Shown in pieces: positions 54,701 to 57,700 of a DNA stretch of 64,000 bases. How positions within the stretch are numbered: the first letter of the stretch is position 1; the number at the start of each line of letters is the position of its first letter. The notes beneath the pieces are model-generated. The model was not told the origin of the DNA and did not search any database. It saw only the letters and a list, made by a program, of their open reading frames with translations. The position numbers were made by a program, and so were the translations under genes. Source of the stretch: Dastarcus helophoroides (Eukaryota; Arthropoda; Insecta; Coleoptera; Bothrideridae); the NCBI GenBank assembly GCA_028583605.1, contig CM053327.1:38039626-38103625 (forward strand), written 5' to 3'.

Positions 54701-57700
54701 GACCTATAACCTGATAAAAGTTTTATAGAATCAAGATTTAAATGTCATAAGAAATTAATTAATAAAAAAGTTCATAGTTCTGTCTTCTAGCTGAAAATAA
54801 ATACAAAAAACACCGACATCACTCCAATCAGACCAGATTTATTGTTTAAATCTTTCAAACTACCAACACGTTCCGCAGCTTCGTGTCGAACGGACAAAGT
54901 AAATAATTATCTTGTGGTCTTGTAGTAAAATCGGCGCAAGGTCTCATAGCCAAAGATAAAAGCGGAACCTCTGACCCTTACGCGACCGTTCAAGTTGGCA
55001 AAGTCAAAAAGCGCACCAGGACAATGCCGCAGGAACTTAATCCCGTCTGGGACGAGAAGTTTTACTTGTAAGTTGAAAGTTTGTCCTTCCGCTTAGGCAT
55101 GCATTGTTCCAACTCTCGCTTCCACCTTGCAGCGAATGCCACAATTCCTCCGACCGAATTAAAGTCAGAGTTTGGGACGAAGACAACGACCTCAAAAGCA
55201 AACTGAGACAGAAGCTCACTAGAGAATCCGACGACTTCTTAGGTACAAACAATTATTGAGGTTAGTAGTCTAGTTTGATGCGGGGGGTAATCTGACGCAT
55301 TGTGTGTGGATAGGTGCGAACGTTGTCCGGTGAAATGGACGTTTGGTATAATTTGGAGAAGAGAACGGACAAATCGGCCGTTTCCGGGGCTATTCGCCTT
55401 CACATATCCGTCGAGATCAAAGGGGAAGAAAAGGTCGCGCCTTATCATGTACAGTATACTTGCCTTCACGAGAAATCTCTTCCACTATCTCTGCGAGCAG
55501 AACATGGGGGTCGTCAACCTCCCCCAAGCCAAAGGTGATGACGCTTGGAAGGTTTACTTTGATGAACCCGCCGAAGAAATCGTCGACGAATTCGCAATGA
55601 GATATGGTATAGAGTCCATATATCAGGCCATGACGTAAGTATTGACTACTAGATAATCACAATCCTCAATGAAACGTTCAGTCTAATTTTCAGCCATTTC
55701 CACTGCCTTTCTACAAAATATTTATGCCCTGGAGTACCAGCTGTGATGAGTATGTTGTTAGCGAACATAAACGCATATTACGCACACACGACGGCCTACG
55801 GCCGCCGTTTCGGCTAGCGATAGATTCGCCGCTTCAAATTTCGGGGTAATTCGCCCTCGTTTCCCCCACTCTTCCAAATACTAATCCCAAATCTCTTTAC
55901 AGAAAGAGAAGTTCGTTAAACTTCTCGATCAGTTGCACAATTCCTTGAGGATAGACTTGTCGATGTACAGGAACAATTTCCCGGCGTCCAGTCCCGACAA
56001 GTTGATGGACCTCAAGTCCACAGTCGACCTTCTTACCAGCATCACATTCTTCCGGATGAAAGTGCAAGAGTTGTCGTGTCCGCCGAGGGCGAGCACGGTC
56101 GTGAAGGATTGCGTGAAGGCTTGCCTACGTTCAACATATCAGTTTTTGTTCGAGAATACCTACGAGTTGTTCAATAGGGAGTTCCAGCCGGATCCAAATG
56201 AGCCCAAACGGGACCCCGACGACCACGGACCTCGGCTGGATAGCGTGGACTTTTGGCACAAACTTATCGCTCTTATAGTATCCGTTATAGAAGAAGATAG
56301 GAATAGTTATGGTCCCGTTTTGAACCAATTTCCTCAGGAACTTATCATTGGGCAGGTAAGAGATCCTTCGACCGTGGACAATTTAGGTTTTTATAAATGT
56401 GTCTAGGTTTTTATGAAAATGTGTCCACTTGTCAGTAGATGACTTCTGTGAAATGCCTTCTTTACTTCATATTTATAAAGTAGTTTTTAAAAGTTAATGT
56501 TTTAGTCAAACTTGGACCGTTTCTAGTAGAAATTTTGGTTATTCAACTGTTTTATGCAAGTAGAATGCAACCTAGACTACAAATTCATGCAGCCCTCCAA
56601 GAGTCACACGCTTGACGTCTGTGAATTTTTTAATACTTACTTGTGGGAACATTTGTTAGCATTCGAGTTGGATATACCAAACTGACGAGATCTAACAAGA
56701 TCGAAACCGGTATTTGGTTTCCAAACTTCGAATCTAATAAATGTTCAAACCTATTGGTCTGTGCATTAGAATCCTTGTCTTCTGGGAAATTGTTCCTAGA
56801 GAGCAACCGCTTCGCTAGGTGGCAGTATTTCAACTGTTGATAGTTCAGCTACCTATGATTCACTATACACGCCGCATGGAGGGCTGCATGAATTTGTAGT
56901 CTAGATTGCATTCTTACTTGCATATGACATTGTTGGCGATGGCCGTAGTTTCTCTATGGACCAATAGGTGGTGGTACTAAGAGTCACACGCTTGACGTCT
57001 GTGAATTCTTTAGTACTTACTTGTCGGAACATTTGTTAGCATTCGAGTTTGATATACCAAACTGACGAGATCTAACAAGATCGAAACCGGTATTTGGTTT
57101 CCAAACTTCGAATTTAATAAATGTTAAAACCTATTGGTCTGTGCATTAGAATCCTTGTCTTCTGGGAACTTTCCTAGAGAGCAACCTCTTCGCTAGGTGG
57201 CAGTGTTTCAACATTAGAATCATTCAACTGTTTATAAAATTTCTTTCACATTTGCGGAAAATTTTAAAAAAAAAAAACTAATATATTCCAATTTGAAGCC
57301 AAAATATTGTAACCAAGTTCTGAGAACTTTTTACATAAATTCTAAATTTTCAAGATTGTCTTAAAATTTAAAATTGTCTAAAAATTTTGGATTTAAACTC
57401 GAAATGATAGTTTTTTGGTTTCAAATATTTATTCAAGAAGAAAAGTTATCTACTTATAAGCGTTGACTGACAGGCAACGCACAGCTTAAACCGAAGAAGT
57501 AAGAAATTTTCGCACAGGGTTTAGCCGTAATACGTGGGCGAGCATTAAGAGAGTATTTTTTAAAAGTTCAGTCTCTAAGGTAGTAAAAATGGTAATTAAA
57601 AACCACTTAAAATGCATGCAATGCGTAATACACGTTAAAGTTGTCTATACGCGTTGACAGCTGACATCGTTAATTAATGTGTTTCCACACAAATTTATTC

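Follow-up and report, generated by a model that had tools for sequence, protein, structure and literature searches.

Retrozyme-type hammerhead units with Penelope-type insertion ends in and around an unc-13 intron of Dastarcus helophoroides

The window analysed here, a 64-kb stretch of the genome of the beetle Dastarcus helophoroides to which all coordinates refer, contains part of unc-13, a conserved neuronal gene. The exon frame at 55885 matches the MUN domain over profile positions 1-87 (Pfam) and the exon frame at 60412 matches it over positions 86-189 (Pfam); when compared with solved structures, the upstream MUN exon matched unc-13 homolog A (E about 1e-71). The intron has the borders GGGCAG/GTAAGA (donor) and TTTCAG/TTGTC (acceptor). 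Given the MUN exons on both sides and these borders, three copies of a short hammerhead-bearing repeat (E1, E4 and E5) are located on the sense strand of a single unc-13 intron, and the placement proposed by the first-pass annotation is upheld. A further copy, E2, is oriented like these three and is found on the 3' side of the next MUN exon. The features are as follows, with positions inside the repeat unit given on a circular monomer M, in which M1 is the first base past the predicted cut and M1-M380 correspond to 56713-57092:

35835..36148, minus strand: E3, single unit from M276 to M210, core G8 changed to A, one broken stem I pair
56356..60432, plus strand: unc-13 intron, containing E1, E4 and E5
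56541..56552, plus strand: left target-site duplication (TSD) of E1, ATTCAACTGTTT
56553..57221, plus strand: E1, single insertion with 12-bp TSD and two intact hammerheads
56553..56599, minus strand: inverted 5' piece of E1, matching 56877-56924, outer end at site T1 (see below)
56677..56717, plus strand: hammerhead E1a, core intact, predicted cut 56712/56713
56713..57092, plus strand: the one complete 380-nt monomer (M1-M380), bounded by the predicted cuts
57057..57097, plus strand: hammerhead E1b, core intact, predicted cut 57092/57093
57222..57233, plus strand: right TSD of E1, ATTCAACTGTTT
59995..60112, plus strand: E4, M321 to M61, C3U in the hammerhead
60190..60310, plus strand: E5, apparently E4 and its upstream flank duplicated in tandem, C3U, stem II weakened
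62977-62989 and 63452-63464, plus strand: TSD of E2, TTCTAAAGTGGGA, 13/13
62990..63451, plus strand: E2, inverted M210-179, palindromic junction, two units 177 nt apart
63178..63218, plus strand: hammerhead E2a, core intact, 41-mer identical to E1a and E1b
63355..63395, plus strand: hammerhead E2b, core A6 changed to G

Hammerheads E1a and E1b are identical 41-mers spaced 380 nt apart, reading CCAAA-CTGACGA-GATC-TAACAA-GATC-GAAACCGGTA-TTTGG. Both possess all invariant core bases, a 5-bp inner stem I, a 4-bp stem II and GTA preceding the cut. Stem III comprises at most an A-U and a C-G pair on a 2-nt loop, inside the palindrome ACCGGU. A descriptor that required CTGANGA, GAAA and UH together with a 5-bp stem I, a 4-bp stem II and a closing pair in stem III found three matches in the 64-kb window (56682, 57062 and 63183) and none in 200 dinucleotide-preserving shuffles. 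The first-pass annotation had reported two tandem intact motifs within 56553-57221; the descriptor matches at both, and the predicted cuts fall where it had put them. Its spelling of the 3' part as GAAA-ACCGGT counted one A twice, the actual sequence being GAAACCGGT.

In hammerhead core base numbering, the full type I core (CUGANGA/GAAA, UH before the cut, three helices) is present in three of the seven units of the family (E1a, E1b and E2a); the remainder read A6G (E2b), G8A (E3) and C3U (E4, E5). This changed core base in 4/7 units counts against the retrozyme/Penelope reading developed below. No Rfam model matched anywhere in the window at its gathering threshold, which is 52 bits for RF02275 Hammerhead_HH9. 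In E-value mode over the whole window, HH9 recovered five of the seven units at E 2e-6 to 1e-3, namely E1b (57044-57115; 39.1 bits, E 2.1e-6), E1a (56664-56735; 34.4 bits, E 6.9e-5), E4 (33.6 bits, E 1.3e-4), E2a (31.9 bits, E 4.2e-4) and E2b (30.5 bits, E 0.0012). E3 and E5 were absent from that list; E3 obtained 23.1 bits (Rfam) when its 721 bases were searched alone, and E5 had no Rfam match. Every copy thus stays below the Rfam gathering score. Taken to the letter, this is an outcome that the first-pass annotation had named as refuting; we do not read it so, because the matches are significant by E-value and separate insertions carry the same motif.

A covariance model trained on the seven units (R1) retrieved those seven at E < 1e-19, by construction, and the next match was a separate remnant at 22416-22486 (E 0.002). 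R1 matches at 39138, 31928, 45435, 40179, 63754 and 61522 (10-15 bits, E 0.3 or worse) were dismissed as noise. Exact-pattern scans found neither the motif nor its flank in viral contigs, and the motif had no match in bacterial and archaeal genome contigs.

E1 is bounded by a 12-bp TSD whose copies agree at 12/12 positions, as had been described earlier. It is composed, in order, of inverted M212-165, sense M267-380, M1-380 and M1-121, and a 9-10 nt piece corresponding to M52-61. The sense part therefore runs from M267 to M121, or 1.6 turns of the circle, and the small terminal piece adjoins the TSD. Inverted and sense parts have a single A in common at their junction, which forms no hairpin. 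With one full 380-nt unit between the cut sites, an E1 transcript could release at most one 380-nt RNA. The element has no long reading frame (longest stop-free stretch, 72 codons), and GC is 41.3%.

A BLAST of E1 and E2 against the window revealed five elements with seven hammerhead units, three of them intact, within 64 kb. The term 'dispersed', used for the repeat in the first-pass annotation, is well justified by this count; the inverted left piece of E1, E2 as a whole (62990-63451) and the other copies had been overlooked. E2 starts with inverted M210-179, continues in sense from M179 to M391 (M11 of the next turn), jumps to M215 and proceeds to M59-63. Its inverted/sense junction is a perfect palindrome centred on AATT. 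The short E2 unit requires an extra deletion or template jump, a further point against the retrozyme/Penelope reading. E4 and E5 seem to derive from a single older insertion that was subsequently duplicated along with the flank upstream of it.

Flanking duplications are less clear outside E1 and E2: the test gave only 2 bp for E3 and only 3 bp for E4, for which no TSD was found. A looser reading of E3, with the boundary placed by eye a few bases further out, offers a possible 6-bp AAAGTG. At 20000 random places drawn from 1000-62000, duplications of at least 12 bp occurred by chance in 115 cases at the E1 spacing and in 461 at the E2 spacing, rates that probably overstate chance for unique DNA because satellite arrays were among the places drawn.

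Other repeats adjoin these copies. Repeats of 21 bp, ATTCAACTTAAACTGATGATA, occupy 60109-60390, directly after E4 and E5 and just 5' of the unc-13 exon. Two adjoining inverted repeats are located at 62825-63057; of the two, 62989-63049 forms the palindromic 5' end of E2, and 62825-62941 is separate from E2 and has miRNA precursor model matches below the cut-offs, probably only through its hairpin shape. We rejected a miRNA identity around 62827-63057: these are inverted repeats.

The element boundaries, mapped on M and refined on the flanking sequence, are unevenly distributed around the circle. Six primer-side ends fall on two sites, T1 (M210-212; left end of E1, left end of E2, right end of E3) and T2 (M59-63; right end of E2, right end of E4/E5 counted as one event, and right end of E1 solely via its 9-10 nt piece). 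The other ends are scattered (M165, M179, M267, M276 and M321). For two further ends to lie no more than 2 nt from a first one, on a circle of 380 nt, the chance is near 2e-4 per site by simple after-the-fact arithmetic. An inverted 5' piece together with a TSD was found in two of the five elements, E1 and E2, and both inverted pieces start at T1, where E3 simply ends. Judging from this anatomy, the inverted and sense pieces of E1 and E2 may represent two cDNAs, each primed by a different strand of the same target, and the palindromic junction of E2 could have arisen from two same-sense cDNAs annealed by their 3' ends. No earlier twin-priming account for Penelope insertion was found by title in a literature search that was thin on subscription papers.

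Differences between units within an element bear on the template. The two E1 units show 10 differences over the duplicated stretch (nine substitutions and one 2-nt indel), and those of E2 show eight (seven substitutions and one 4-nt indel, with two repeat-edge bases left out). None of these variants (0/10 in E1, 0/8 in E2) is common to another element: all are private to one unit, and at each difference the non-private unit agrees with at least one other comparable element. The count was made by eye from tables, and four of the ten E1 differences are comparable with E3 only. As the within-element differences are all private, each element probably arrived with identical units, which is what copying round one circular RNA, or along a uniform multimeric one, would produce. 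The unit tree unites E2a with E2b (84/84) and E4 with E5 (100/99) and fails to group E1a with E1b, so that identity at insertion is deduced from the private differences, not from the tree.

The 380-nt unit is strongly self-paired, with a circular fold of -122.3 kcal/mol vs -88.5 +/- 5.5 for 100 shuffles (z -6.1). Its antisense has z -4.0 (100 shuffles), and the 177-nt unit has z -4.55 in sense and -4.0 in antisense; part of the self-pairing is thus not strand-specific. Taken alone, the best fold of E1a pairs core ACUG with CGGU (-19.0 kcal/mol, vs -11.6 for the hammerhead without stem III). Non-hammerhead folds are likewise preferred for E1b (-18.8 vs -8.5 kcal/mol) and E2a (-21.7 vs -13.0 kcal/mol). 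Since a lone motif is predicted to misfold, cleavage probably requires two units acting together, and the palindrome ACCGGU would form a 6-bp stem III between two copies. The computed two-strand optimum for E1a plus E1b is a long duplex (-40.2) with no double hammerhead, under an energy model that disallows a 2-nt loop, and with the stem III pairing of two self-closed motifs being non-nested.

Across the seven units, 93.3% of the cells are paired, a value equalled in 6/500 shuffles. Double changes that keep pairing occur at columns 7-59 and 9-57 of outer stem I (two sequences have A-U for G-C, one has G-C for A-U) and at 29-36 of stem II, with 40/500 shuffles doing equally well. The covariation score was equalled in 5/500 shuffles and the number of pair types in 500/500; of the five outer pairs, two are each broken in two sequences and another is broken in one. 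Covariation lends weak support to the hammerhead pairing.

Animal retrozymes are described, in the available part of PMC7229834, as short tandem units that are low in GC, carry type I hammerheads, occur in insects among others and are circularised; the same text names Penelope-like elements as their strong candidate helper, on indirect grounds. The copies studied here share with these metazoan non-LTR retrozymes the type I hammerhead in short noncoding tandem units: both E1 and E2 consist of tandem units with one hammerhead each, and the lengths of 380 nt (E1) and 177 nt (E2) lie within the ~150-450 bp expected of retrozymes, about 170-400 being given in that text. They also share a low GC content (41%), a strongly self-paired unit and, in E1 (12 bp) and E2 (13 bp), a TSD that exceeds 4 bp; for E3 and E4 a TSD is not established. 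The 2-bp stem III is like that of amphibian retrozymes and unlike that of most invertebrate ones, again by the available part of PMC7229834, where Penelope-type ends, seen on the insertions here, are absent from the account of retrozymes. Satellite hammerheads of newts and salamanders are similar in their short stem III and expected dimer cleavage (available parts of PMC6155905 and PMC7229834), but the copies described here are dispersed insertions of one to two units, and no long hammerhead array was found in the window.

Published Penelope insertions exhibit inverted pieces, palindromes and tails (PMC3846280, in the part available). The inverted 5' piece, palindromic junction and TSD reproduce this pattern, and the minimal stem III and a tail-like end past the hammerhead are shared with hammerhead-bearing Penelope-like elements (PMC11167929 and the available part of PMC3846280). 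The tail-like end corresponds to T2 in E2 and E4/E5 and to a 9-10 nt remnant in E1, and T1 is an end in three elements. The TSDs of 12-13 bp compare with 8-10 bp in rotifer Penelope elements (same part of PMC3846280). Unlike Penelope-like elements, the family has two end sites 150 nt apart, a stem I with an outer helix and internal loop, a whole unit of at most 380 nt and no recognised reverse transcriptase (RT)/GIY-YIG frame. Such a frame was found neither in E1 nor in the ORFs scanned with Pfam, which were 15 of the 29 in the window that reach 90 aa; two of these 15 matched MUN, one had a sub-cut-off transposase-like match and twelve had no match. On these grounds the family is at most a non-autonomous Penelope derivative.

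Biochemical work on a Penelope-like protein provides a further comparison (PMC11167929). The protein cuts and extends both target strands, prefers an ATT site and begins to copy within its own RNA, at a point 3' of the hammerhead that lies 111-118 nt into the ORF. As the hammerhead cuts at +26, copying starts 85-92 nt past the cut; T2 is about 61 nt past the predicted cut. Hammerhead mutants (inactivating core changes C3G or G8C) still inserted in vitro, the anole hammerhead cut only with the protein present, and no RNA-read ends were located at the cut site; these results count against cleavage being needed. The role of minimal hammerheads in Penelope-like elements is called 'still a mystery' in the available part of PMC7761336.

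We consider, with a probability of about 0.7, that the five copies belong to a family of non-autonomous retroelements, of the same kind as the animal (non-LTR) retrozymes, whose insertion relies on Penelope-like machinery. This reading, already suggested in the first-pass annotation as retrozyme/Penelope-like, is well supported by the anatomy, that is by the short tandem type I units, TSDs, tail-like ends, inverted 5' pieces and self-pairing; a Penelope ORF was not recognised in E1 or the ORFs scanned. Also against it are the sub-gathering Rfam scores of all copies, the non-hammerhead folds of single motifs and the long-duplex optimum of two, the thin covariation, and the weak TSD of E3 and missing one of E4. 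Under it, a multimeric transcript would fold two type I hammerheads with a 2-bp stem III each, which would pair as a dimer through the ACCGGU palindrome and then cut. The 380-nt RNAs so freed may be circularised by a host ligase, as suggested by work on other animals. A Penelope-type reverse transcriptase and endonuclease, presumably provided in trans, would open the target, and copying would begin inside the RNA at T1 or T2, to which the shared end sites point. It would then go round a circle or along a uniform multimer, either of which would agree with the sameness of the units. In E1 and E2 both target strands may have primed copying, one at T1 and the other at T2, and joining of the two cDNA ends by short homology would leave the inverted piece that is seen.

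The template is the point on which the most serious alternative differs. The copies might be solo pseudo-LTRs or internally deleted copies of an ordinary Penelope-like element, made from linear transcripts with no circle, and their tandem units the usual partial tandems. We rate this as only somewhat less probable than even, and it is compatible with the insertion steps just outlined. It would account for the tail-like end at T2, ~61 nt past the cut, for the inverted pieces and palindromes (PMC3846280, available part) and for the 177-nt spacing in E2, which resembles a pLTR-pLTR-tail arrangement, and it accords with the dispensability of cleavage indicated by the in vitro insertion of hammerhead mutants (PMC11167929). 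Less easily reconciled with it are the longest stop-free stretch of 72 codons in E1, the self-paired unit (z -6.1) whose 380 nt is inside the retrozyme range, and the lack of old-array variants common to units and other elements. Identity of the units at birth would equally follow if each tandem had been formed by duplication of a single unit after insertion, in which case it would be uninformative on the template. E4/E5 looks like such a case, with ~35 bp of upstream flank duplicated (by eye), but in E1 and in E2 intact TSDs enclose both units and the duplication takes in no flanking DNA, which makes this origin improbable for them.

For the inverted 5' pieces, self-priming of the cDNA by fold-back has been proposed in rotifer Penelope elements and is favoured in the available part of PMC3846280. 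The perfect palindrome at the E2 junction is what fold-back would produce; in E1, by contrast, inverted M212-165 joins M267 and not its own complement, hence no hairpin, and the outer end of the inverted piece is T1 in both E1 and E2, where E3 ends too. Self-priming thus appears unlikely here. That the family is a decayed hammerhead-bearing repeat with no activity left seems to us quite unlikely: the core changes in E2b, E3, E4 and E5 and the ~5-6% divergence already accumulated between the units of E1 and of E2 speak for decay, but the 41-nt motif is the same in E1a, E1b and E2a, which come from two separate insertions, although E1b and E2a have diverged at ~8% of the 128 columns that were compared.

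The kind of element is already known, and these copies are a new member of it in which retrozyme-type units are combined with Penelope-type ends. The copies thereby link two element groups whose connection was so far a guess. The link, which bears on the enzyme that mobilises animal retrozymes, is testable from the ends of all copies in the genome. As a tentative generalisation, with the odds leaning against it, Penelope-like enzymes may prime both target strands from fixed sites in the circular hammerhead RNA of animal retrozymes, so that inverted 5' pieces would be the second target-primed cDNA and not fold-backs. The elements have also placed intact ribozymes in the sense strand of an unc-13 intron, a situation to be compared with Cpeb3, where an intronic ribozyme can affect the expression of its gene (PMC10919898, available part).

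A second hammerhead-like motif, of different sequence, is located at 22420-22484 on the minus strand. It has CTGACAA, a 4-bp stem II, AAAA in place of GAAA, a 6-bp stem I, a stem III palindrome ACATCGATGT and GTC before the cut, and it reached 28.2 of 52 bits with HH9 (window-wide E 0.0068) and 23.6 bits with R1 (E 0.002). Since two core bases (G8 and G12) read A, it is probably a dead copy. The motif belongs to an insertion at 22145-22640 (minus strand) with an 11-bp TSD, AATAATTTATT (by eye), in a satellite array. The 3' part of this insertion recurs at 32387-32663 (94%), in a copy starting ~12 nt past the predicted cut, and at 58142-58302 (80%); the insertion and its recurrences are possibly another hammerhead-bearing retroelement family. 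Several satellite arrays with a unit of ~241 bp, and partly with a higher-order period of ~485 bp, extend over 17431-31034. An uninterrupted transposase-like frame of 377 codons is encoded on the minus strand at 40275-41408, with DDE_3 and DUF4817 just below the Pfam cut-offs.
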